Source of the DNA: a virus
Length of the DNA: 38,842 nt
Strand: one strand, 5' to 3'
Virus record (IMG/VR): IMGVR_UViG_3300020185_000118
Span: 1 to 38,842 of that record
In this document: positions 11,966 through 36,993 of the stretch, in pieces
How the letters are laid out: each line of letters begins with the position of its first letter
Numbering within the stretch: position 1 is the stretch's first letter
Program-made: the position numbers and the translations under genes
The notes under the pieces: generated by a model
The model's input: the letters and a program-made list of their open reading frames with translations, nothing else
Database searches by the model: none
Told to the model about the DNA's origin: nothing

Positions 11966-12252
11966 TATGTGCCTAATTTACGGACATTTACATTGTCAAT
12001 TTTACCGTATTCTTCCACAGGAACATCAAACGTAACCTGAGTTCCATCGGATTGCACATACGTCATCTGCCGTGCCTCTGTCACATCCCATGTCTGGTAG
12101 GTAGCATAATACACACCGTCAATTTCTTCGCACTCTTCTATTGATTCTTGATCGTACATAAACACCATGTTCGGAACACGGCTGTCGACCCAACCTTCAA
12201 CGAAATCCGTATCCTCAGCCACGGCTACTCTGTATGTGTTTCCTCTTACCAT
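11965..12252 (-). CDS. Small beta-rich protein of unknown function, 95 aa
   Basis: I chose the ATG at 12252 (MVRGNTYRVAVAED), which overlaps the upstream gene's TAA in a TAATG junction. A longer reading to 12318 would run 66 bases into the propeller gene and begin with low-complexity Ser/Asn sequence. The protein is acidic with short beta-like strands and several Tyr and Val residues; no motif is recognised. It ends in another TAATG junction with the muzzle gene. Position between fibre-type genes and the muzzle suggests an accessory tail protein, but nothing in the sequence proves it. Confidence 0.65.
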   Translation of the reverse strand: MVRGNTYRVAVAEDTDFVEGWVDSRVPNMVFMYDQESIEECEEIDGVYYATYQTWDVTEARQMTYVQSDGTQVTFDVPVEEYGKIDNVNVRKLGT

Positions 12253-13436
12253 TATCCTGCTACTAATACTGCAGCTCTTTGCGCTGCTATTGTTACTCCT
12301 GTTCTTACTTGATACCAATTGCTGTTTACGGTTTGCCCGAAAACTGCTTTAAATTCTTGACTGTCTTCGCCTCCAATCCAAAAGGCTCCTGATTTTATTC
12401 CTATACCCAAATGTTCAGAGTTTGAGCCAGCCCAATCTGCCGCATCGTAATGAGTCCAACCTGAACCTACGCTGGTCAATTGATAACCGCTTGAACTAAG
12501 TTTTTTGTCGGTTGTGCTGTTGTCGGGGCGTAAATATTTTGAACCCTCACCGTTGAATCGCAAATATCCTGTCGAATCAATGTGGCATCCGGCAGCATGA
12601 CTGTGGTTACAAATTTTAGAACAGACGTAATTGGTAGAACTATTGACGGCTAACAGGGGGCCATTCCTACTCGAAGTTGTGGTGATTTGTGGGCCTGCCA
12701 GTCCGTTCGTGTTATTGCCTGTAAAGTAAACATCGCCACTGCTGTTTCTAAGCCACGAGCAACGGTAACCACCTGCAGCTTCAACTATATTAGTTAAGCT
12801 GTTTTTTTCTCGGGTGTAGGTCGAAATTGTGCCTGTTGAGCCTTGGCCCGTCATGTAGTCGTAACCGTAGCCTGTTGAGTATGCCTCACCACTGCTGTTA
12901 ATTGCCCATGCATGACGATAGCCGTGGTGTATTTTTGTCCAATTACCTGCTGTATTTACGGTTGTCCAACTGCTTCTACTGGATGTGCTTCCATCACCAC
13001 GCTGCCTGTAGCTACCGCTTCCTAAAAACATGATGTCGCCGCCTTTGATTGCGCCAAACGTATACTGTCCAGCAGTTATATCTGTCCAATCTGTATCTGT
13101 GCCGTACTGCCTCCAAGTGCCATCGCTTGTAAAATACGATGTGGACATGAAGCTAGTACTTACAGACCAATACCACAAAGTTCCGTCACTTTTAAGGGCG
13201 TGAAACTGCAAATAGCCGCGGCTGGCAGCAATCTTAGTGAATGTGTTTGCCGTGTATGCGGGTCCGATATTGAATTCTTTAGTCACATAGGGATTGGACC
13301 AAAATGAACTTGAACCATACATCTGTAATCCCGTGTTAGTAACAGAATTAGCCGTGATGCCGCTAGATCCTTGAGTCGTATAGAATCCGTCTACGTTGTC
13401 TATGTCCGCTGTTGGAACTCCTGAAATTTCTCCCAT
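12252..13436 (-). CDS. RCC1-like beta-propeller tail/receptor-binding protein, 394 aa
   Basis: Residues about 66-394 contain seven degenerate repeats of the RCC1 / alpha-tubulin-suppressor type: a Trp followed by an xxIxxG turn, a small-residue strand, then G-x-hydrophobic-Y/W-x-x-G. Examples are WTDITAGQYTFGAIKGGDIM (117-136), WTKIHHGYRHAWAINSSGEA (166-185), IVEAAGGYRCSWLRNSSGDV (217-236) and W374-G380 near the C-terminus. Seven units are what a closed propeller needs. The N-terminal 60 residues (MGEISGVPTADIDNVDGFYT) may be the attachment part. It lies directly after a long trimeric-fibre-type gene (TAATG junction), so a distal or receptor-binding role is inferred. Base composition looks more GC-rich than that of its neighbours, consistent with exchange. 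Confidence 0.75.
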   Translation of the reverse strand: MGEISGVPTADIDNVDGFYTTQGSSGITANSVTNTGLQMYGSSSFWSNPYVTKEFNIGPAYTANTFTKIAASRGYLQFHALKSDGTLWYWSVSTSFMSTSYFTSDGTWRQYGTDTDWTDITAGQYTFGAIKGGDIMFLGSGSYRQRGDGSTSSRSSWTTVNTAGNWTKIHHGYRHAWAINSSGEAYSTGYGYDYMTGQGSTGTISTYTREKNSLTNIVEAAGGYRCSWLRNSSGDVYFTGNNTNGLAGPQITTTSSRNGPLLAVNSSTNYVCSKICNHSHAAGCHIDSTGYLRFNGEGSKYLRPDNSTTDKKLSSSGYQLTSVGSGWTHYDAADWAGSNSEHLGIGIKSGAFWIGGEDSQEFKAVFGQTVNSNWYQVRTGVTIAAQRAAVLVAG

Positions 13437-16400
13437 TATGAATCAATTTGAATCCAGTCGTTACTTGGATTGAAGTAAACTAAAAAACCTCCTGAGACAC
13501 TACCGAGATAGTGTCCCATTACGCGAGCATATGAATTAGCAGCAGTTGGCGCGGAGGCTATAAAACTACCTGATGCACCAAGCCACAACGGTCTTCCCGC
13601 TGTCGCTCCTGTTGGCACAGATTGACTAATCTCAACTATTCCGTTAATAACGCATTGATCAGAAGTGCTTGTGACAACTCCTAAAAAGTCTTTGCTGTTT
13701 GCGTTTGTGTTATCTGCTGTTGTGTCTTGCAGCATACTAACTATAACGCCTGCGCTTGCAGAAATGCCGTTTATAGATTCGAAGACTACATTCTTTGCAC
13801 CGCCTACATCATCGGAAACAAAAGCCCCTGTAATTGTATTCAGTAAAACTTTATCGGCCGCTGACATAGCCCCCTTTACAGCAGTAGTTGCTGTGTTTAT
13901 GCTAATAGCTGGTGTGTTGCCTCCACTACTAACAATCGGTGCAGTACCTGTGACTGCGAAAGTCTCAAATGCAAGATTTCCTGATCCATCTGTTTTCAGG
14001 TACTGACCGTTTGTACCGTCTGTGTCAGGAAGAGTAAAAGTAAGATCGGACGTCATGTTAGTCGACGGACCTTGCAGTATAACTCCATTTGTCCCACCCA
14101 TCGAAGGCTCGTTAAACTTAATGCTAGCTTGAGTAGTGCCCCCAGCTCCATTAAACTTAACGTCATGCAAAAACTGAGTAGGAGCACTAAACTGCCATAA
14201 ACCTGTGCCGGAGTTAGCACTTGTGTCGTATAATAGTTTAGAACTAGACCCAACTTTAAAGTTTAAATCGTGGCCCATCGTAACGATACGAGATCCCGAC
14301 AGAGTCATATCAGTATTCCCGAGATTGGTGTTTGTATCAGCTGTCTGAGCAACAAAAGATAAAGTACCACTACCATTTGTTGATAATACTTGACCATTAG
14401 TACCATCAAGAAGAGGTAAGGTATATATTTGATTAGTAGCTATTGAAGCAGGGGCCTTAAATCCTACGTAATTAGTACCAAAACCTGTCCCTTCTTGAAA
14501 TCTAAATTCTGCAACATTTGTAGTACCTGCACCCTCCAATAGGAGATTAGTTGGTTTAAGTAGTATATCTCCTGTGCCTGTGGGGTCAATTACTATGTCG
14601 CCATTACTAACAGAAGTAATCTTGTTTCCATTAACATCAAGGTCACCGCCAAGCTGAGGCGTTGTGTCTTCTACTATATTACCGAGTCCCCCAGAACTAA
14701 TTGTACCCCAAGCATAATCGCTGCCCGTCCACTTCAAGTACTGTCCACTACTTGCACCGCTCTGATTTAGATGTGTGTTAACACTTGCGTCTGTGTAATG
14801 TGCTAAGTCACTAATTTGACTTTCGGTAATAGTTAGTGCTGCTTGATGCTGGGTTACAGACCCTTGTGAAATGCGAGCGTTAGCAAAAGTACCTGATGTA
14901 ATCTTACTTGCCCCTAACCCTGGGATACGTGCAGTACTAAATGTACCACTAGTTATTTCACTGGCTGCGTGGTTGTGCGATGAGGGTGCGAACGTAGAAG
15001 GTGTACCAGACAGACTTCCGTATGCTCCATCAAATAAAGCAGTATTCCCTGCTAAAGCTGTGCCCGCTGTAGTACCAAATCCTGGAAAAGAAGTCTTAGC
15101 AGTATTTGCCGCGACGTCCGTAGCAATATCAATTCCATCAACTGTTCCCGTAACAGAGATGTTACCCTCTACATCAAGTGCTTCGCTTGGCGATGTCGTG
15201 CCAATACCCAGATACCCTTCGGAGCTGAGGCGCATCTTCTCAAGGTTGGTGTTCGTAGTGCCAGCCGCTGCAATACCTTCACAAGTCCAAAAGCTTATCA
15301 CCCCGCTATCTCCAGAACCAGCACCAGGGCCAGCCTTGAGTCGAAGGTTTCCGCCACTTCTATTTGAGTAAGTGGCAGCACCTGCTTCAAGGTGAAGAGA
15401 AGATTGAGTTGAATTTGGTTCATCCCCTCTTACGCCTAACCTTTTTTCTGCCGACGTATTGCCACCAACATGACCAAACTGCAAATCTCCGCCAAGTACA
15501 GAAAAGTTTTTATAAACTTGAAGGCCACCGTTGTAAGACATCGAAGCAATCAAGTTGTCTGCAACTAAATCTGCTCCGTCGCTAGTGTTAGTGCCTTTTG
15601 CGTAAAAGCTAAGACCTCCTGTACCGTAAGAGCCGCCGCTACTTCTAATGCTTGCTCCAGCATTGTTAGAGGTTGTATGATGCTTGAAATCAAGATGTAT
15701 GGTACCGCCTGAATTAGTATTACCCCCTAACTTCAATACTGTCGTGTTGCCGTTTGGATTCGCAATTCGCGTAACGCCACTAGCGTCTGGTTCTAGAAGG
15801 ACTTCGCCCGATGAAACCGAAGTAATTTTATTCCCATTGACATCTAAATTTCCACCAAGCTGTGGTGAAGTATCTTCTACTATATTGCCCAGGCCTGAAC
15901 TAACTGTTCCCCAAGCATAGTCCGTTCCGGTCCATTTTAAGTACTGCCCGCTAGTTGCACTGTTTTGATTTAGATGCGTATCTACACTAGCATTTGTATA
16001 ATGAGATAGATCGCTAATCTGACTTTCAGTAATAGACAAAGAAGCCTCGTGCTGAGTCACATTAGAAACAGCTACTCGAGCGTCAGCAAGTGTACCGGAA
16101 CCGATTTTACTTGCATTCAAGCTAGGAATACGAGTAGTAGTAAAAGTCCCTGAGGTAATCTTACTAGCAGCCAGATTTGGAATAGCCGCACTAGTAAGAC
16201 CGGTTACGCTTCCATCAAAATCAACCGCCTCATTAAAAGTAGTAAGGGCGTTCGTCCCATTAGTATTACCTAATACAGTAATCGCATCTACAGATGATTT
16301 ATTTCCTGTAGTACCTGCTTGAACACTTAAAGTTAAGGTTGCTGCGCCTACCTCATTTAACTTAATAGCGGTATGCGAACCCGCTTGGAGGATAGAATCA

Positions 16401-16867
16401 CTCGTTTTAACAGAAACGTGAGACGCGGTTGTTGCTTTCCCGTCGCTTACAAATACACCACGATCTCCTGTATCAGTTTTAGTCGCAGCTTTAAGAGCTG
16501 TAACTTTAGCAGCTTCAGCAGTTATTAAGCTTGTATTTGTAGCGACTTTTGGGTCTATCGGAGTCGCTGCAAAATATGAAGTACTATTTAAGGTTGAAAG
16601 TACAGCTGCAGCACTGGCACCAATTGCAGTTGTGCCGTCCTTACCTACGAGTTTAGCAAAAGGAATATTATTTAATACAACCGTTCCATTGCTGTTTACA
16701 ACCTTTATCTGATTCGTGTTTACAATAGAGGCGGTAAGTGCTTCATTCGAAGGATACGTATTTACAGCAGGCGCATTGTTTATCGAGGAGTTTAATTTGC
16801 TTGATGCAGCTACGGCACTCGTAATTATAATCTGCCCGTTTTCAAGATATATTTTTATATTCTTCAT
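13436..16867 (-). CDS. Long tail-fibre-like protein with duplicated module, 1143 aa
   Basis: The start chosen is ATG at 16867 (MKNIKIYLENGQIIITSA), one base after the upstream TGA; a TTG four codons earlier is less likely. The protein is Ser/Thr/Gly/Ala-rich and beta-repetitive. It has fibre motifs seen widely in marine phages: ITESQISDL, GQYLKWTG.DYAWG, LGNIVEDT.PQLGG.LDVNG and GIGTTSPSEALDVEG. A module of about 130 residues occurs twice. The C-terminal 120 residues (GRPLWLGASGSF, ARVMGHYLGSVSGGFLVYFN) resemble a small tip domain found at the ends of phage fibres. I infer a trimeric adhesion fibre. It sits between the dockerin-bearing protein and the RCC1-like protein. Confidence 0.8.
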   Translation of the reverse strand: MKNIKIYLENGQIIITSAVAASSKLNSSINNAPAVNTYPSNEALTASIVNTNQIKVVNSNGTVVLNNIPFAKLVGKDGTTAIGASAAAVLSTLNSTSYFAATPIDPKVATNTSLITAEAAKVTALKAATKTDTGDRGVFVSDGKATTASHVSVKTSDSILQAGSHTAIKLNEVGAATLTLSVQAGTTGNKSSVDAITVLGNTNGTNALTTFNEAVDFDGSVTGLTSAAIPNLAASKITSGTFTTTRIPSLNASKIGSGTLADARVAVSNVTQHEASLSITESQISDLSHYTNASVDTHLNQNSATSGQYLKWTGTDYAWGTVSSGLGNIVEDTSPQLGGNLDVNGNKITSVSSGEVLLEPDASGVTRIANPNGNTTVLKLGGNTNSGGTIHLDFKHHTTSNNAGASIRSSGGSYGTGGLSFYAKGTNTSDGADLVADNLIASMSYNGGLQVYKNFSVLGGDLQFGHVGGNTSAEKRLGVRGDEPNSTQSSLHLEAGAATYSNRSGGNLRLKAGPGAGSGDSGVISFWTCEGIAAAGTTNTNLEKMRLSSEGYLGIGTTSPSEALDVEGNISVTGTVDGIDIATDVAANTAKTSFPGFGTTAGTALAGNTALFDGAYGSLSGTPSTFAPSSHNHAASEITSGTFSTARIPGLGASKITSGTFANARISQGSVTQHQAALTITESQISDLAHYTDASVNTHLNQSGASSGQYLKWTGSDYAWGTISSGGLGNIVEDTTPQLGGDLDVNGNKITSVSNGDIVIDPTGTGDILLKPTNLLLEGAGTTNVAEFRFQEGTGFGTNYVGFKAPASIATNQIYTLPLLDGTNGQVLSTNGSGTLSFVAQTADTNTNLGNTDMTLSGSRIVTMGHDLNFKVGSSSKLLYDTSANSGTGLWQFSAPTQFLHDVKFNGAGGTTQASIKFNEPSMGGTNGVILQGPSTNMTSDLTFTLPDTDGTNGQYLKTDGSGNLAFETFAVTGTAPIVSSGGNTPAISINTATTAVKGAMSAADKVLLNTITGAFVSDDVGGAKNVVFESINGISASAGVIVSMLQDTTADNTNANSKDFLGVVTSTSDQCVINGIVEISQSVPTGATAGRPLWLGASGSFIASAPTAANSYARVMGHYLGSVSGGFLVYFNPSNDWIQIDS
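14572..14967 (-). repeat. Fibre module copy 2 (about 396 bases, in-frame duplication)
   Basis: Encodes EITSGTFSTARIP through ITSVSNGDIVIDPTGTG and matches the copy at about 15781-16176 in the same order and spacing (SGTF..., VTQH.A.L.ITESQISDL, HYT.ASV.THLNQ, YLKWTG, VED..PQLGG). Edges are approximate, read by eye. Confidence 0.8.
15781..16176 (-). repeat. Fibre module copy 1 (about 396 bases, in-frame duplication)
   Basis: Encodes KITSGTFTTTRIP through ITSVSSGEVLLEPDASG, the partner of the module at about 14572-14967. The two copies are close in protein sequence but have clearly drifted in DNA, so the duplication is not very recent. Edges are approximate. Confidence 0.8.
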
Positions 16868-16868
16868 A

Positions 16869-18284
16869 TCAAGTTGCAATTACTTTAGTAACTACTTTTT
16901 TTACGACAACGCTTGCAAAGGTAGAAGTAGAAACAAAGAAAATGCGACATTCTATATCTTCAATGTATTCATCTACAGAAGGTTCGTGGTTTAACAAAAA
17001 CCCATTCTCAAGTGCTACAGAATGATTTTCAAATTCATCGGCCGCTACAAGATCATCATCATTTAAATCAATTACACCAAACATGTTGTCATAAGTCTCA
17101 GCTCCAGTGCTCACTAATCCCTGTCCATAACCCTCACCACCGTCAATTTTCATATAGTAAATACACTCTTGTGTCGTAGGCGTTTGGTCATCTCCTGTAA
17201 CTTTCACATACAATAAAGGTATTACTTCATCAGCAGCGCTAAATACAGCATTAAATTTTACTGTTACCTGTAAGCGTCGAGTAGCCCAATGAGATACTAT
17301 AAGAGCGGGTGTTCCAGAATTGTCCCCGCTTGTTAGATTGTCCCCGATAGACATATCATTTAACTTAACAAAGTTAGCGGCGTTAACAGAATTAGAAACC
17401 GATCCCCACCCATATGCATCTCCACTTGTTGAAAAGGTAATAGGATAGTTAAAAGTGGTTAGCTCTGAAAGAGCGAAGGTAGCCGTAAGATCGGTAGCCG
17501 CACTAGGGTTTATAGGTGCAGCTGCTTCTGTAGCTCCAGACATAGTAGTATAATCGGTTTCATATCCTACACCACTCTGTCCAAAACTGCCTAAAAATAG
17601 AAGCAAGTCCGCTGTGGTTACTTCACCGTCATTGTTTAGGTCTCCTGAAGATCCGCCTCCAAATCCATCGTCAGCTTGTTCCTGTGTAATTGTCCCACTT
17701 AGGACTAAGTCTGCAATAATTGTCTGTGTAAGTGCAGATGTAATCTCTCCCCAACTAAGCTTACGAGTTCTTTCTTTTTCAGTATCGTACCCAGCAAGAA
17801 AAAAGTTTTCGCCTGCTGCTGCTTGAAGATCAGAAAGTTGCGCACCTGTAATCGCATCGTACATATCGAAGTCCTGAATAAGCTCAGTCCAACGATCGGC
17901 GTTAGCTCTATTAGCATCACCTGTGTTCCCCGCAGTAGGAGATGTCTGAGCTAGGTATATACCCACTGCCTGCCCGCCGGTTAGCTTCGAGTCTTTGACA
18001 GAAATCAGACCCCCTTTAAGAGTCTCTAGTTTTACAGTAGTGCTTGCATCTACTTGATTAACTGTAGAACTGGCTGCAAGAGGAAGTTTGTAGAATTGAA
18101 CAGGATCGTCACTTGTATTTGTAAACTGCTCCTTTACATCTGAAGTATCGTTATAAGATACCTGTAAAGACGGACTAGTTCCTACAAAGCCGTTATAGAG
18201 ACCAACAATATTATGCTTGCTGGTCTCTATAATAGCAAAGTTAGAATTTACATTCTCTAGTAGATCAGCTAACTTTATCGGCAT
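16869..18284 (-). CDS. Fibre/appendage protein with dockerin-like and EF-hand-like calcium motifs, 471 aa
   Basis: It starts MPIKLADLLENVNSNFAIIE; the ATG lies 20 bases inside the end of the upstream 127-aa gene. Residues 155-192 (AAGENFFLAGYDTEK, then TRKLSWGEITSAL) resemble a connector segment common near the start of phage fibres. A Gly/Ser linker (207-213) leads to GDLNNDGEVTTADLLLFLGS (214-233), a single dockerin type I-like repeat with ligand positions D215, N217, D219 and D226. A second loop, DLNDDDLVAADE (406-417), fits the EF-hand spacing with Glu at position 12. The rest is beta-rich. Calcium binding is inferred from spacing only. Context among fibre genes suggests an appendage or receptor-binding role. 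Confidence 0.75.
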   Translation of the reverse strand: MPIKLADLLENVNSNFAIIETSKHNIVGLYNGFVGTSPSLQVSYNDTSDVKEQFTNTSDDPVQFYKLPLAASSTVNQVDASTTVKLETLKGGLISVKDSKLTGGQAVGIYLAQTSPTAGNTGDANRANADRWTELIQDFDMYDAITGAQLSDLQAAAGENFFLAGYDTEKERTRKLSWGEITSALTQTIIADLVLSGTITQEQADDGFGGGSSGDLNNDGEVTTADLLLFLGSFGQSGVGYETDYTTMSGATEAAAPINPSAATDLTATFALSELTTFNYPITFSTSGDAYGWGSVSNSVNAANFVKLNDMSIGDNLTSGDNSGTPALIVSHWATRRLQVTVKFNAVFSAADEVIPLLYVKVTGDDQTPTTQECIYYMKIDGGEGYGQGLVSTGAETYDNMFGVIDLNDDDLVAADEFENHSVALENGFLLNHEPSVDEYIEDIECRIFFVSTSTFASVVVKKVVTKVIAT

Positions 18285-18648
18285 TAGTCTTGAGGGTTAG
18301 AAAGTCCATTGCAGCCATCAAAACGGTAGGAGCAATAGACAAAGTTCCATCGTCTATTAGTTCAACCTTTTTTAAGCGGACTTTCTCATCCTCATTGAGC
18401 AATGCTTCTACTTGCTTTTTAAAGTCTGCAGCATCTTCGTCAGCGATTTCAGGATCACCATTAGAGTCAACTGTAGCCTTTGTGCGAAGCTGTTCAATAT
18501 AAGTTTGTCTGTGCTCTTCAAATGATTCAACTAGAGGTTGCAGCTTGGACATATTTTGTGCGATCGTCCATCCAGTTACAAGTGGGAGCTGTGACTCACT
18601 TATAGTCTGAAAGGCTTTATACACGTTGATACACTCTTTTAATAACAT
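18265..18648 (-). CDS. Small helical protein, DUF1617-like, 127 aa
   Basis: Starts MLLKECINVYKAFQTISESQ and is mostly charged helix, with an acidic segment near residues 80-100 and a hydrophobic C-terminal end (SIAPTVLMAAMDFL). The layout (short LPL-type turn near residue 21, long helices, E/K-rich middle, hydrophobic C-terminal helix) resembles small phage proteins of the DUF1617 type and the 135-aa protein encoded at 29759-30166. Both follow a fibre-type gene, so a role in fibre assembly or attachment is possible but unproven. It is preceded by a 36-base gap after the 805-aa fibre gene, and overlaps the following gene by 20 bases. Confidence 0.7.
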   Translation of the reverse strand: MLLKECINVYKAFQTISESQLPLVTGWTIAQNMSKLQPLVESFEEHRQTYIEQLRTKATVDSNGDPEIADEDAADFKKQVEALLNEDEKVRLKKVELIDDGTLSIAPTVLMAAMDFLTLKTNADKVS

Positions 18649-18684: not shown

Positions 18685-21102
18685 TTATCCTACAACCACT
18701 ACATTGAATACGTCACCGTCAGCAATACCGCCTCCAATAGCAACGCGAACTGCATTTACTGTTTGAGAAGTGTACTTAAAGAAGACAATATTGTCGGAGG
18801 CATCGCGTACTTGTACGATAACATCCTTATGATTAAGGTTGTGCGTAATAGTAAAGTATCCATTGCTCACATCACTGTTGCCTGATTCATCAATAGTATA
18901 TTCAATCTTAAAGGTCCGAGCAACTCTAGTAAGAGCACTGGCAGCATGATCTTTGTTATCAATAGCCCAGTATTTATTGCCTACGGTAGTATCAAAAACT
19001 AAAGAAGGGTGCGCAGAGTTATCGTGATTTTGCTTATATGCCTCTATACCAAGTAAAGTACCAGCGGCCATAGCAGCAGCGTCTGCAAAATCTTCATCTT
19101 CTCCGTCATCTTCATTACCAAGCGTTATTAATGCGTCTCTCATATATACATTTTCCTGTTGAAGGTTAATGTATGTACCGTCTCCAATGACGTTAAGATT
19201 ACCAGAGACAGTAACGTCACCAGAGAAGCTTGCAGCTGCTGCAGTGATTGTACCTGTTAGGGCTGGTGAGTCTGCAAAAACAAGAGCGCCTGTACCTGTC
19301 TCATTAGTAATTATACTTGCCAACTGTGCAGATGTTGTATTTGCGAAAGCACCGAGGTGATTAGCGGTCAACGCAACTGTACCCGTAGCATTCGGTAGTG
19401 TAATCGTGCGATCTGCACCGGGATCATCAACAGCCAATGTAGTCTGAAAACCATCGCTAGTAGCTCCTTCAAAGATTAAAGGATTAGCACTTCCAATCGT
19501 AGACCCGCCTGCTAGTGCCACATACGCAGCATCGCCAGCAGTAGCAGCGGCAGACGCAGCGCTACTTAGTATTGTAGCTTGAGATACATTGGTCACATTA
19601 CCCAGTCCTACGTCTGTTGCAGTTACGGCTGCAAAAGTGGGAGCTTGTGCTGCAGCGCCTGTTCCCACTGACCGCATAAACAGGTTAGTAGCAGCTGTAT
19701 TACCGGCAAGGAATGCAGTAGTATCGGCATCACTCTGATAAGGTACGCTACCTACAGCTCCTCCTGCCAGCGCACCAGCAGTACCAGTAGTGTCTGCATT
19801 TATCAATGCAAACTTTGCACCGATAGCTTTGGATGACATGATGTGAGCATCGTCATCTACAAACTCAGAAGTAATATCAATGTCATCAATTGTGTGGCCG
19901 CCTAGAACCAAACTAGCAACAGTAGCCGCACCTGTATTTAGTGCGTTCGTACCATTATCTATGTCGCCAAAACCAGTATCTATACTTCCGTTAGACAAAA
20001 CCCCTACAGTAGTTATTGCAAGACCATTTATGTCACTTTGGGTTGGAGCAGCTGTGTATGAAGGTGTTCCAAAAGTACCATCATGTTTAAGAAATTCTCC
20101 GGCATTGCCTGCTGCAGGTACCAGACCTCCATTGCCTTTTGGCTGACCAGAATCAAACACGATGTCGCCGCTCATTGTACCACCAGCAAGAGCTAACTTC
20201 AAAGCAATAGCTGCGTCAGCGGCAGTTTCGTTCGCGTCAACGTCAGACTGCACAGCAGCAATGGCTGCATCTGCGTCGGACTCGTTGCCATCAACATCGC
20301 TTTGGATGTTATCAAGCTGAGTCTGAATATCGCCTGAAACACCACTTAAAGTTGCAAGCTCTGCGCTCGTGACTGCAGATACTGCAACTTTACCATCGCC
20401 ATTAGAAAGAAGTGCGCGATTTGCGGTAAGATCATTTGTAGCAATCGTGCTTGCTCCACCAGTGATATCACTAGTGCCCCCAGCTCCTGTAGCTCCAATG
20501 TAACGGTAGCCTGCAATGTAGACTACGTGAGTGTCGGTAAACGTTGTCCATGAATCAGAGTCCTCAAAGCTGCCAGTACCATTCTCATCCTCTGGAGTCC
20601 AGTACAGCATACCGGCTTCATAGTCGAAGTACCAATCGCGGTTAGCGTCTGAGCCAAAGATGACTTGCGTAATATTGGTATCGGTGGTGTCCCCATCCCA
20701 GTTTGCTGGTCCGACATATACCTTAACCAAATATCCAGCACCAAATGTTGGTCCTAGCCAGTTAGTAGCCCCAGTCTTCCAAGACCGTTTGAAATTGGTC
20801 TGCAGCGGCATAGCTGGCGCATCACCATTAGGTGTACACGTAGCCACAGCAGTAGTACTGCCAGGCTGCGTTCCTGTATGACTAGCATACACCTGTACAT
20901 AGGCGCTCGTAGCACTAGGAGGGACAACAGGAACGTTTGTTGTGTCTGCCTCTCTCCATATAGAGCTCGGCTTTACTGCAATAAAGGATGAAGAAGTTTC
21001 ACCCGCAGGCGTAAATTCCTCGCTTCTTCCGCTTTTGTTAGCACCAAAAGCAACTTTTTTATATAAGAGATCTAAAATCTCTTCACTAGAAAATCCAGCC
21101 AT
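18685..21102 (-). CDS. Tail fibre protein, marine phage type, 805 aa
   Basis: The N-terminus (MAGFSSEEILDLLYKKVAFG) followed by a P/T/S-rich stretch and SIWREADT matches the recalled virion-attachment start of many marine phage fibres. Residues about 100-200 are a globular domain rich in aromatic residues (GYLVKVYVGPANWDGD, DWYFDYEAGMLYWTPED). Residues about 244-295 contain an 18-residue heptad-like repeat (SDVDGNESDADAAIAAVQ, then SDVDANETAADAAIA), suggesting a trimeric coiled coil. The middle is a beta-repeat shaft, and the C-terminus (YFTITHNLNHKDVIVQVRD) resembles a distal fibre domain of T4-like cyanophages. It begins 12 bases after the 720-aa gene. Confidence 0.85.
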   Translation of the reverse strand: MAGFSSEEILDLLYKKVAFGANKSGRSEEFTPAGETSSSFIAVKPSSIWREADTTNVPVVPPSATSAYVQVYASHTGTQPGSTTAVATCTPNGDAPAMPLQTNFKRSWKTGATNWLGPTFGAGYLVKVYVGPANWDGDTTDTNITQVIFGSDANRDWYFDYEAGMLYWTPEDENGTGSFEDSDSWTTFTDTHVVYIAGYRYIGATGAGGTSDITGGASTIATNDLTANRALLSNGDGKVAVSAVTSAELATLSGVSGDIQTQLDNIQSDVDGNESDADAAIAAVQSDVDANETAADAAIALKLALAGGTMSGDIVFDSGQPKGNGGLVPAAGNAGEFLKHDGTFGTPSYTAAPTQSDINGLAITTVGVLSNGSIDTGFGDIDNGTNALNTGAATVASLVLGGHTIDDIDITSEFVDDDAHIMSSKAIGAKFALINADTTGTAGALAGGAVGSVPYQSDADTTAFLAGNTAATNLFMRSVGTGAAAQAPTFAAVTATDVGLGNVTNVSQATILSSAASAAATAGDAAYVALAGGSTIGSANPLIFEGATSDGFQTTLAVDDPGADRTITLPNATGTVALTANHLGAFANTTSAQLASIITNETGTGALVFADSPALTGTITAAAASFSGDVTVSGNLNVIGDGTYINLQQENVYMRDALITLGNEDDGEDEDFADAAAMAAGTLLGIEAYKQNHDNSAHPSLVFDTTVGNKYWAIDNKDHAASALTRVARTFKIEYTIDESGNSDVSNGYFTITHNLNHKDVIVQVRDASDNIVFFKYTSQTVNAVRVAIGGGIADGDVFNVVVVG

Positions 21103-23278: not shown

Positions 23279-24562
23279 TCAAGAATATTTTAGTTCTAGA
23301 TTTAATATAAGATTATCATCAAAAGCTCCAGGTTGATTTGATCTGTAAGCTTTATATGTAGGAACCGCTGTCCCTACGGTACGAGCAAAACCACTGCCAC
23401 TGTTATCGTAAAGTGTCCAACTATCTGTGTAGTTTGCAACACCTTTACCTATTACTTGAGCCGCAACTTCCCCTAATGTACCTGATCCTGGTATTAAAAT
23501 CCAAGTAAAGGTACTATTATTTTCTGTATTATTGTTACATTGTACCTGTAAACTTTGCACAACCTTCGAGGGGTCTACTAATAGTGTAGAAGTTATTGTA
23601 CTAGTTGCGTTGGTTAGTAAGTCTTGTACAGAGCTTACAGTAGATGCGGTAGATGTGATTACATAGAATCTATGCCTGTATTTTATATGTACAGTTTTTA
23701 GAAGAACAGTAGTTGTATTTGTACCTGGAAGTTGATATGCAACCTGCAGTCTAATATTTCTTTGGCCTATTGCAGTTGATACTGGAATACCAGGAGAAGA
23801 GTATGCAATAGATTGCACGTATGGAACATTTAGTGCACCGTAATCAGTTATGCTTTGTTGCGCTAACGCAATGTGATTTCCTACCGTAGTAGTATCTACT
23901 ATAATCAGCGGGTAGCCGTTGAATAAACTTTCAGGATTATTAAAGGTTATAGTCATCGCAGATGTGTTTGCTGCAAGACCGCACTCGACTATTAAGTTTT
24001 CTTCTTCTGAGATTGATGCTCCAGTACCCGCAATGCTAATTGCTCCTATGCTAGGAATTAAAAATGGGGCAAGCATGTCTCTCATAAGAACTTCTACTGC
24101 TGTTCCGCTGCTGTAAGTGTCTCCTTTTTCAGCATCTCCAATAGTATTAGTTACTGTTAAGGCTTGATCCAAGGTAGAGCTACCTCCGTCTGCTTCTGCC
24201 CAAACGTATGTTCCATTAACGTACTTGAGAAATTTGTTTGTTACAGGTACAGGAACATCTCCTAGATCTTCTAGTTGATGCGGGCTTGTTTTAAAAAATG
24301 CGTTTAGCGCTACAGCTGTTGCAGTTACATCAGCTCCCCAAACAGCATTATTTTCTGTTATTATGTCCCCGTGTGCAAGTCCAATAAATACTTTAATCTC
24401 CTTAGACTGTGTTTCAATATCTATTGCTCCTCCTACTACTCGTGCAAAAAGTTCTTGCGTAGGAAATGCACGCACACCTAATATCGTGTTTGTGTTTGTG
24501 GCATCTACTGTTTGAACTGTGTGCTGTCCACCACTTGCTTTAATTTTATACTTGTTTGCCAT
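23279..24562 (-). CDS. Appendage/baseplate-like structural protein, 427 aa
   Basis: Starts MANKYKIKASGGQHTVQTVD at a TAATG junction with the ring-protein gene. Residues about 105-160 (LEDLGDVPVPVTNKFLKYVN, then TYVWAE) form a fibre-like segment. Residues about 150-175 (YSSGTAVEVLMRDMLAPFLI, then PSIGAISI) fit a motif I recall from Bacteroidota-phage structural proteins. The remainder consists of beta-rich, Ig-like stretches rich in Thr and Asn. Being the first gene after the third ring protein, it may connect the appendages to the tail. That is inference from gene order. Confidence 0.7.
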   Translation of the reverse strand: MANKYKIKASGGQHTVQTVDATNTNTILGVRAFPTQELFARVVGGAIDIETQSKEIKVFIGLAHGDIITENNAVWGADVTATAVALNAFFKTSPHQLEDLGDVPVPVTNKFLKYVNGTYVWAEADGGSSTLDQALTVTNTIGDAEKGDTYSSGTAVEVLMRDMLAPFLIPSIGAISIAGTGASISEEENLIVECGLAANTSAMTITFNNPESLFNGYPLIIVDTTTVGNHIALAQQSITDYGALNVPYVQSIAYSSPGIPVSTAIGQRNIRLQVAYQLPGTNTTTVLLKTVHIKYRHRFYVITSTASTVSSVQDLLTNATSTITSTLLVDPSKVVQSLQVQCNNNTENNSTFTWILIPGSGTLGEVAAQVIGKGVANYTDSWTLYDNSGSGFARTVGTAVPTYKAYRSNQPGAFDDNLILNLELKYS

Positions 24563-25944
24563 TACTCCACTTTAAGCGTTCCTGCACTTATTTTAACTGC
24601 GCTGAGTCCTGGGTTTGATTGTACAGGGAGTCTAAGGAATACAGTAGCTGATTGTACACTTCCTACAAGGGTTGTTTCGTCTCCTTGTATTTGTGTATCA
24701 GTACCACTGAGGGCATATGTAGTTGTTCCTACAATTGTTTCTTGACCTGTAGAATTATTAACCATCACTACTTCTATATCTAAATCTCCTGCCCCGTCAT
24801 CATTAAATGTTAAAGTGTAAGCATACGTCAAAGTCATAGACGACGTAAGTCCGGTGAGAAGCCATTGATTGCTGGCGTACGTAATAATAGATGTGCCGTC
24901 AATTGTGCTTAAGTCTGTGGATTGTGGATTAAGCAATTGCACTGCAGCAGTTATACCTGCTCCGACGGCAATTCCATCTGTTGTAGTACTGCTCCAAGAA
25001 ACGCTAGTTGTTCTACGGGTTAGGTTTGTAGCAGCACTCTTTGTAGGAACGCTGTTTGAAATAGTTGCGCTATCTATAAGTGTTCCGCCCCCATTTCTGT
25101 CTAGTGACTCACGTCTGTTGAGACTCCCAAATCCTTCTGCGTGTCTGTTAATGTTAGGAATGAGTCGTACCCATTGATCCATAAAGGATTCGTATGCATC
25201 AATATCTGGATAGTTAGCTGCATTTCTAGCTTGAGTGCAATAGTACTTCCATTGCATTTCTGCAAATTCATACCCAATCCCATTTTGAGATGGGGTCATA
25301 TTACCCAGCAACATCTTTTTATATACGTACCAGAACATAGCCTCTTTAAAACTAATATCGTCTGGGATAAGAGGGTAGCAGTCATCATCTACGGGAAAAG
25401 CCATATAGCTTAAGCATACTTTGCCTGTAGAAAAAGATGTCTTAATCTTATCTGCTTCAATGTAATAACATCGTGACGTTACTTTATTATCTTCTATACA
25501 GTCAGGACAGTCTGTGCTTCTTGGAAAATGAGATCGGCATTTTGTTAAGATAGCCATGTCGTCTGCTCCCCCAAGTTGATTCTCTAAGACTTGCAGCCTA
25601 GAGTTCATTTCATTTAGCGTATGGTTAGATGCTCCTGTTCCGTTTATGATATTGTCTATTCGTTCTAAGAGCGTATCCATTTGCTCTGAGATAATTACAG
25701 ACTCAGCTGTTTCGTTGATAGCTACTTGATTAATGTAAAAGAGATCACTCGGCAATGCAGCTTTGTAATCTTTTACACTTAAGACGCAGTTACGCAACTC
25801 TAGCTGAGGGGCAGCACCGATATGCTCAAGTGCTTCTCCCATCCACTCGACTGCATCATCTATCCAATTATCTGTGTTAGGGTTTATGTCCCTAAAGATC
25901 TTTCGGATAATGACCTTGCTAGATGTTGTTTTATATATTGCCAT
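24562..25944 (-). CDS. Tail ring/adaptor protein with C-terminal extension, 460 aa
   Basis: Residues 1-281 fit the recalled crAss-like/P22 gp4-type ring family. An N-terminal helix has WIDDAVEWMGEALEHIGA (27-44), followed by VLSVKDYKAALPSDLFYINQ (54-73). Then come KTSFSTGKVCLSYMAFPVDD (168-187), YPLIPDDISFKEAMFWYVYK (190-209) and PDIDAYESFMDQWVRLIPN (246-264). Such proteins stack between portal and tail. Residues about 282-460 form a Ser/Thr-rich, beta-like extension (TIDGTSIITYASNQWLLTG, TYALSGTDTQ) that I do not recall in the family and that may be a decoration domain. The start at 25944 overlaps the upstream gene by 14 bases, and the stop is in a TAATG junction. Confidence 0.8.
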   Translation of the reverse strand: MAIYKTTSSKVIIRKIFRDINPNTDNWIDDAVEWMGEALEHIGAAPQLELRNCVLSVKDYKAALPSDLFYINQVAINETAESVIISEQMDTLLERIDNIINGTGASNHTLNEMNSRLQVLENQLGGADDMAILTKCRSHFPRSTDCPDCIEDNKVTSRCYYIEADKIKTSFSTGKVCLSYMAFPVDDDCYPLIPDDISFKEAMFWYVYKKMLLGNMTPSQNGIGYEFAEMQWKYYCTQARNAANYPDIDAYESFMDQWVRLIPNINRHAEGFGSLNRRESLDRNGGGTLIDSATISNSVPTKSAATNLTRRTTSVSWSSTTTDGIAVGAGITAAVQLLNPQSTDLSTIDGTSIITYASNQWLLTGLTSSMTLTYAYTLTFNDDGAGDLDIEVVMVNNSTGQETIVGTTTYALSGTDTQIQGDETTLVGSVQSATVFLRLPVQSNPGLSAVKISAGTLKVE

Positions 25945-35565: not shown

Positions 35566-36993
35566 TTACGATGCCACACACTGGAGATCAAGCGAAGTAT
35601 CGAATCTGCGGAGCAGGATACCAGCTGTCTTCAACATGTGTACAGATGCACCGTCTATGTCACTAGCGCGAGTGTCAGACTCAGCAAATCCCTTAGGGAC
35701 AACTGAACCAGCAACAGCCCAACGCAACATTTCACGGCCTTTCTTATTAATCATCTGGAGGTTGTTTTCTCCGTCATAAGAAGACTGGTCGACAAATGTC
35801 ATTCTGTACGATTCCAATGGCAATCCAGATTCTGGGTGCTTAGCAGAAGCTTGAGCAACAGGACCGTGATCCATCAATGGTACCTTAACTACATTCACTC
35901 TATGACCATCAACGTGCTCATAAGAATTGAAGTAACCAGTGATACCTAAGCTACGTCCGCTACCTGTGATAAACTTAGACTCCGTAGTTTGGAGATAAGG
36001 GGTATTACCATAGTAAGCTTTCATTGCTTTATCAAACTCACGTGCTCCACCAACACCGGTGTACAAAGTCACCTGCTTATCAGTAGCGTCAGTCATTCCG
36101 TAGAACAAGTCCCCAATCACGTTCTCAATCTTTTGTTGAGTGAGAGTAGAGTAAGTGTCCTTGTTGATGATTTGCTCAAACAAACCTGGACCTGCAATTA
36201 CAGGTTGTCCGTTTTCGTCAATCATCTCATTTACACCATTGTCACCATATGTCTTCTGGCCATACCAGTAGTACATCTCACACTCTTCTTTAAACTTGAG
36301 CATGTGACGGTACTCTTCGTAGTCCATCCACAATTTAGTCTTAGAACCCTCACGAGTTGGAAGCTCAAATTGTGCAACATAATCCTTAGCATTACCAGAC
36401 ATGTGGTAAGACTTACGTACTGTTCCGATCTTAGAACGAACCAAGCCGGGCGCTGCCCAGTTAGATGCATTTCCACGAGAGAAGTCTACACCTACTGATG
36501 CAAACAACATACCGAAGAGAGCGCCATTAACGACGTCTGCGGCAGGCATGCTAGCTTGATCAGGAGATACGAGCTTCAATGTATACTCATATCCACCAGA
36601 CACAGGCTTAGGCTGCTCCATAATACGAGCAAGTACACCAGACTGTGAAACCAAGGTATATGGGAAAATAAACCACTTGTCAGGGAATGTCAATTTGAAC
36701 AATTGACCGCCTGCACCTTGAGCTGCAGACAAAGCTGTTGCGTTAGACACGGGGCGGACATTCACTTCGTGAGTTTTTACACGGTACTCATACTCGAAAC
36801 GGTCGATAGATTTAGTGTTACCTACGCCTTCCGTAAGGAAAGACAAAGGAAACTTCTTCTCTTCGCGTCCTGCGAGGTGAGTAATAATTGGAGACAACTC
36901 TTCTGGTTTCTCCATCAAAGCATTAACCAACGAGTTAGTGTCGGTCATCTGCTGATCATTGTAGTACGTTTTTAGTACTTGCGTTAAAGCCAT
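35566..36993 (-). CDS. Major capsid protein, crAss-like HK97-fold type, 475 aa
   Basis: Starts MALTQVLKTYYNDQQMTDTN. It has EELSPIITHLAGREEKKFPL (32-51) followed by SFLTEGVGNTKSIDRFEYEY, the layout I recall from crAss-like capsid proteins. Later it has KLTFPDKWFIFPYTLVSQSG, an extended beta/helix body (YEEYRHMLKFKEECEMYYWY) and YFNSYEHVDGHRVNVVKVPL. Length fits the roughly 450-510-aa family. A scaffold-like acidic gene is immediately upstream (22-base gap), and connector genes are downstream. The HK97 fold is inferred from family, not seen. The leader carries an A-rich AAACTAAC motif and no Shine-Dalgarno site. Confidence 0.85.
   Translation of the reverse strand: MALTQVLKTYYNDQQMTDTNSLVNALMEKPEELSPIITHLAGREEKKFPLSFLTEGVGNTKSIDRFEYEYRVKTHEVNVRPVSNATALSAAQGAGGQLFKLTFPDKWFIFPYTLVSQSGVLARIMEQPKPVSGGYEYTLKLVSPDQASMPAADVVNGALFGMLFASVGVDFSRGNASNWAAPGLVRSKIGTVRKSYHMSGNAKDYVAQFELPTREGSKTKLWMDYEEYRHMLKFKEECEMYYWYGQKTYGDNGVNEMIDENGQPVIAGPGLFEQIINKDTYSTLTQQKIENVIGDLFYGMTDATDKQVTLYTGVGGAREFDKAMKAYYGNTPYLQTTESKFITGSGRSLGITGYFNSYEHVDGHRVNVVKVPLMDHGPVAQASAKHPESGLPLESYRMTFVDQSSYDGENNLQMINKKGREMLRWAVAGSVVPKGFAESDTRASDIDGASVHMLKTAGILLRRFDTSLDLQCVAS

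Follow-up and report, generated by a model that had tools for sequence, protein, structure and literature searches.

We describe a conserved single copy of the dockerin type I calcium loop and helix that occupies a fixed point of candidate receptor-binding-type fibres. Its carriers are uncultured marine phages with more than one type of tail. The dockerin calcium loop with its helix is best known from bacterial cellulose-digesting complexes, and dockerins have been studied as paired modules of cellulosomes, whose parts are joined by dockerin and cohesin, and of secreted bacterial proteins. We know of no TNF/C1q-like trimeric fibre tip that carries a dockerin-type neck, and a search of the open-licence literature found no paper on a single dockerin-type phage module. 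On balance we lean towards the view that the 471-aa protein carrying the repeat is a receptor-binding-type tail appendage in which the half-module acts as a calcium-binding rigid neck, connecting a stalk to a trimeric-type tip. The module provides a sequence handle for host-range proteins of marine crAss-like phages and, together with the partner domain linked to it, opens calcium-dependent fibre assembly to a direct test with two recombinant proteins.

The window, i.e., the whole stretch of DNA that was analyzed, is an uncultured virus record of 38,842 bases. The fibre gene has the following features:

16869..18284, minus strand: fibre-like structural protein with a single dockerin-type repeat, 471 aa (ATG start; homologues)
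18150..18284, minus strand: conserved N-terminal ~45 residues, MPIKLADLLENVNSNF... (top conservation in the homologue alignment)
17697..17753, minus strand: helix before the loop, aa 178-196 (AlphaFold2; loop-masked HMM)
17607..17642, minus strand: calcium loop of 12 residues, D215-L-N217-N-D219-G220-E-V222-T-T-A-D226 (sequence and conservation)
17586..17615, minus strand: F-type helix 3' of the loop, aa 224-233 (AlphaFold2 DSSP, same in the second model)
16872..17573, minus strand: C-terminal domain rich in beta strands, aa 238-471, predicted TNF/C1q-like jelly roll (AlphaFold2; VIA-align)
17031..17069, minus strand: second EF-like loop DLNDDDLVAADEF, aa 406-418, not conserved (homologue alignment)

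The segment GDLNNDGEVTTADLLLFLGSFG, residues 214-235 of the protein, is a complete dockerin type I calcium loop followed by its helix and is present in a single copy. The loop has D or N at positions 1, 3 and 5, G at position 6, a hydrophobic residue at position 8 and D at position 12, and its surroundings have the layout of a dockerin F-hand, with GGGSSG, the loop and then a helix, and no helix directly before the loop (two models, moderate confidence). A canonical EF-hand would have Glu instead of Asp at loop position 12 and a helix directly preceding the loop. The dockerin spacing and the Gly/Ser linker ahead of it (GFGGGSSG), both of which the original prediction had read from the letters, are therefore real, the former being borne out by the sequence, by the alignment to PF00404 and by matches to dockerins in the PDB. 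The profile search it proposed located the dockerin signal at aa 214-229, within the first repeat of the Pfam model only, and the score fell short of the gathering cut-off of 22.9 bits, reaching 12.4 bits in a full Pfam scan and 16 bits (E 5.9e-4) when the window record was searched alone; the homologue L091 scored 22.9 bits in one search and 20.2 in another. A phmmer search of the protein against the PDB returned a single match, the dockerin 2y3n_B (E 0.028), and a profile built from 19 family members placed dockerins at the top (2y3n_B at E 8.8e-11, the CelS dockerin at 1.3e-6), followed by calmodulin at 0.002.

The cellulosomal dockerin type I (PF00404) thus shares with the phage segment the same 12-residue loop and the one helix after it, and its PDB members are what the family profile matches first. 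It differs in having two tandem repeats, whereas the phage copy is single, lies inside a virion protein, scores under the Pfam cut-off and has no detected cohesin. With one repeat and a score under the PF00404 cut-off, the fibre protein is not a full dockerin. The EF-like loop DLNDDDLVAADEF at aa 406-418, which had escaped the original prediction, was considered as the missing half of a pair and rejected, being far from the repeat at aa 214 and not conserved in homologues. A chance motif was rejected as well: a degenerate DNA pattern for GDLNNDGEVTTADLLLFLGSFG has its sole match in the window at 17593-17642 on the minus strand and matches 0 of 100 dinucleotide shuffles, and the segment is conserved above its flanks.

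Homologues were collected by scanning viral contigs with two patterns chosen outside the loop, M[PA]IKLAD[LV] from the N-terminus and G[YF]ETDYT, derived from the window protein and from L088, a contig with the same gene order at this locus. All ten distinct homologues that reach the position keep the loop (L088, L090, L091, L092, L094, L096, L097, L099, L101 and L102), always directly before the C-terminal domain. Identity to the window protein is 50-77% in the loop segment, 16-40% before it and 11-34% after it. The columns that are nearly invariant past the N-terminus include G214, D215, D219, G220, V222 and D226, joined by N217 in a further alignment of carriers, and the relative entropy of aa 214-235 is 2.86 bits compared to a protein mean of 2.18, only the N-terminus being higher. 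Since the loop is kept at the same place in ten homologues while the flanks drop to 11-40% identity, it is not a product of chance. The conserved ~45 N-terminal residues resemble the start of the adjoining 720-aa protein, MAIKFGDTLENQN..., and are probably a virion-attachment segment. The fibres of L097, L101 and L102 have an extra EF-like loop in the N-terminal domain at about aa 89-103, e.g., DVNNDGTYSPAD.

The genes around the fibre block place the phage and bear on how fast the fibre changes:

18265..18648, minus strand: 127-aa protein upstream of the fibre gene (syntenic in relatives, 57-92% identical)
24562..25944, minus strand: tail tubular protein of crAss-like phages (context)
35566..36993, minus strand: major capsid protein, crAss-like (phrog_11589, E 7.7e-86)

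Judging by its major capsid protein, the window phage is a marine crAss-like phage, a placement made from gene families and not from a tree; the capsid is about 28-30% identical to the best-listed crAssphage capsid proteins over 94-100% of its length. The tail tubular gene lies upstream of the fibre block and large fibre-like proteins are nearby, in keeping with the earlier assignment of the single repeat to a phage appendage. A sister contig (L003) with a capsid 99% identical to that of the window encodes a phrog_6547 portal and a phrog_6681 terminase. The capsid, tail tubular, portal and terminase families are like those of Crassvirales and related Bacteroidota podophages, which differ in that tblastn found no such repeat in 50,697 GenBank phages. 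Since cultured relatives of the capsid and tail tubular genes, and of the terminase of one carrier (L007), infect Flavobacterium, Cellulophaga and Bacteroides, the host is likely to be a member of the Bacteroidota. The 127-aa neighbour in the sister contig is 92% identical to that of the window, whereas the first 107 aa of the fibre, the part present before the contig stops inside the gene, show only 55% identity. The fibre block thus evolves fast, and such change beside a near-identical capsid is as expected of a host-range part. Elsewhere in the window, an RCC1-like repeat protein is encoded downstream of the fibre genes at 12252-13436 on the minus strand (PF25390, E 1.7e-14, below cut-off), and an 805-aa protein at 18685-21102 on the minus strand has an N-terminal domain common to large phages of Caulobacter and Brevundimonas (phrog_9417). 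In a sister contig of the window there are two adjacent minus-strand ORFs of 347 and 707 aa with signal-peptide-like starts (L117:11269-12309 and 12309-14429).

Two AlphaFold2 models were made of the fibre protein. The better one (27-sequence alignment, mean pLDDT 60.8) has a helix at aa 178-196, coil through the loop and a helix at aa 224-233; its C-terminal domain is rich in beta strands, and the ordered parts of that domain mostly reach a pLDDT of 75-88. The second (12 sequences, 46.3) is poor and has the same secondary structure, the helix after the loop being 224-233 or 224-235 across the two. The structure prediction suggested as a check thus agrees with a dockerin F-hand, with coil at aa 207-223 and helix at 224-233, at a pLDDT of about 60-67 in the loop-helix region. 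For aa 238-471 the best VIA-align match was 8okw_B (rmsd 3.4 over 142 residues), with a Z of 8.1, a level at which unrelated folds can also match. Many TNF/C1q-like chains were among the matches: the comparison was headed by the Bdellovibrio Bd2734 fibre tip, followed by EDA-A1, C1q and BclA, and further down came the HS1 tail-needle knob and TM4 gp23. Foldseek gave no match at E <= 0.001 (best against the PDB, E 0.055). The Bd2734 tip belongs to a trimeric family and has been described as adhesive and TNF-like (PMC10769870). The predicted jelly roll is like those of the trimeric tips Bd2734, BclA and the phage HS1 needle knob, although sequence identity to them is only 6-9%, and we take the TNF/C1q-like assignment as a lead on the fold rather than proof.

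The loop, its conservation, its constant position ahead of the C-terminal domain and the linkage to the next gene are observed; from this arrangement we infer calcium binding, a trimer, a neck function and receptor binding for the fibre protein. The chain would run from an N-terminal attachment part through a helix and the dockerin-type half-module (loop and F helix) to a TNF/C1q-like jelly-roll tip. One calcium ion would be bound by the half-module, which would form a rigid neck between the stalk and the tip. If the fibre is a homotrimer, the base of its tip would be encircled by three such units, so that one repeat per chain would be enough. The putative neck is conserved, in contrast to the fast-changing tip and middle part. 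The original prediction had offered two readings, binding to a cohesin-like host protein or a calcium-stabilised joint, and the joint fits better, since the loop is single, keeps its calcium ligands and has a helix on one side and the predicted jelly-roll tip of trimeric type on the other.

The repeat proved to be a widespread conserved module, which goes beyond what the first reading had claimed. The pattern D.N.DG.[VI]...DLL.FL matched 83 viral contigs or stretches, of which 39 have one repeat inside the protein, followed by at least 100 aa, 13 have it at the C-terminus, 6 have it paired, 19 have it in tiny proteins and 6 fall outside these classes. The 39 single-repeat carriers mostly have 170-251 aa between the loop and the C-terminus, and their N-terminal parts vary by group, collagen-like stalks among them. 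An HMM of the preceding helix, built from the crAss-like set with the loop masked, still finds six other carriers (E 1e-6 to 1e-7; a near-duplicate makes a seventh), with the helix ending 3-8 residues ahead of the loop; consequently the helix belongs with the linker and the loop to a single homologous module. The unit of helix, linker, loop, helix and ~200 residues to the C-terminus recurs in dozens of uncultured phage contigs. With the same loop before the fibre tip in so many marine phages, it is probably a calcium-stiffened neck and not a curiosity of one virus. A crAss-like capsid is present in 14 of 37 carrier records; other carriers include portal-family relatives (L007, L017 and L058) and phages with a tape-measure protein (L068 and L080). 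We considered the former three unrelated to the crAss-like group and rejected this, as their portal family is that of the window's sister contig, so only the two tape-measure carriers are clearly different phages. PHROGs gave no match to the fibre protein or to any of 27 aligned family members, a whole-protein back-translation scan gave none, and neither did tblastn of the 50,697 GenBank phages with the whole protein, the segment or a 28-aa consensus, a search in which short queries are weak. Stand-alone dockerin-like proteins of ~50 aa, MTIDIYYLLSWLAYFGTQTKYDPTYDLNGDGYVTIADLLEFLTLFGTTI, occur in about 18 contigs (L022:6223-6372 on the plus strand, L010-L012, L014, L015 and others), that of L022 close to a fibre-like gene.

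The module is also tied to the gene that follows it:

16583..16867, minus strand: partner domain, N-terminal ~95 aa of the next gene (HMM from crAss-like carriers)
13436..16879, minus strand: partner fibre-like protein (start most likely 16867, MKNIKIYLENGQ)

The next gene starts within a few bases of the fibre gene and opens with a domain of ~90 aa, M..IKVYxKNGxVxI...ATVTALN. An HMM of this domain made from the crAss-like carriers matched all 19 other carriers picked by eye (worst E 0.001) and 0 of 18 controls (best E 0.37), and the domain was missing from all 13 tested carriers whose repeats are paired or C-terminal. Once the L006 group, L042, L047, L054 and L076 are counted, about 19 of 24 single-repeat carriers outside the crAss-like set, among those whose next gene can be read, have the domain; the added ones carry a single repeat in another layout or without the partner gene, and they count against the neck reading. 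Because the domain opens the next gene in most carriers, fibre and next gene look like a cassette. This raises the alternative, unlikely in our judgement, that the half-dockerin holds the N-terminal domain of the next gene product and so joins two fibres in one appendage. The occurrence of the domain in crAss-like and most other single-repeat carriers, and in none of the paired or C-terminal ones tested, speaks for it, as do the presence of the pair in both crAss-like and tape-measure phages and a reverse scan with the partner-domain pattern, which yielded two new contigs with the loop in the preceding gene (L129 and L131). However, the same scan yielded a partner-domain gene with no loop upstream (L121; L119 is cut off), the domain matches neither cohesin nor another known family, and appendage genes often travel together without direct contact.

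The neck reading leaves unexplained the close likeness of the loop to Flavobacteriales dockerins. A search of 84,980 species genomes with a stricter motif gave 9 contigs, all from Flavobacteriales MAGs and one of them labelled Chryseobacterium gleum. Most of these copies lie at the very C-terminal end of large proteins that are probably secreted; together with the GC-type dockerin (NF041540) they are the closest cellular motif, GDxNxDGxxNxADLLxFLGxFG. All 8 Flavobacteriales genomes searched have dockerin matches over the cut-off, some scoring with the NCBIfam family dockerin_GC (NF041540), a 'domain-anchored' family. The repeat might accordingly mimic the dockerin-type tags carried by surface proteins of Flavobacteriales and bind the receptor that holds them. 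We regard this as distinctly improbable: in the phages the repeat lies inside the protein, ahead of the tip, and the flanking cysteines of the cellular copies are missing from it (Cys occurs within 6 residues ahead of the loop in 0 of 39 single-repeat phage carriers), and cohesin (PF00963) over the Pfam cut-off was absent from the 8 motif-bearing Flavobacteriales genomes, which are incomplete MAGs and may not be the phage's host. With cohesin over the cut-off also absent from 16 carrier phage records, the cohesin-binding reading first suggested found no support. Docking to the partner fibre has better circumstantial support than docking to the host; taken together, it is rather unlikely that the half-dockerin is a true docking device, either joining two fibres via a new cohesin-like partner or binding a dockerin-holding machinery of Bacteroidota. 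The likely hosts have the same loop type, which would also suit a host fragment that was picked up recently and does nothing by itself, but the calcium ligands persist in homologues with only 11-40% identity in the flanks and in phages with different N-terminal domains, which makes this already disfavoured explanation very improbable. The difference in cysteines between the Flavobacteriales and phage copies would fit a host origin of the repeat followed by change to a protein folding in the cytoplasm.

Some carrier phages also encode a metalloprotease of M43 type (PF05572; L133:1025-2140, L134:771-1958 and L137:1600-3507, all on the minus strand, with similar ORFs in L135 and L136). PF05572 scores 64 bits in the three scanned, and the enzyme looks secreted, with dockerin-like repeats near its C-terminus; the tail of that in L137 resembles a type IX secretion signal.
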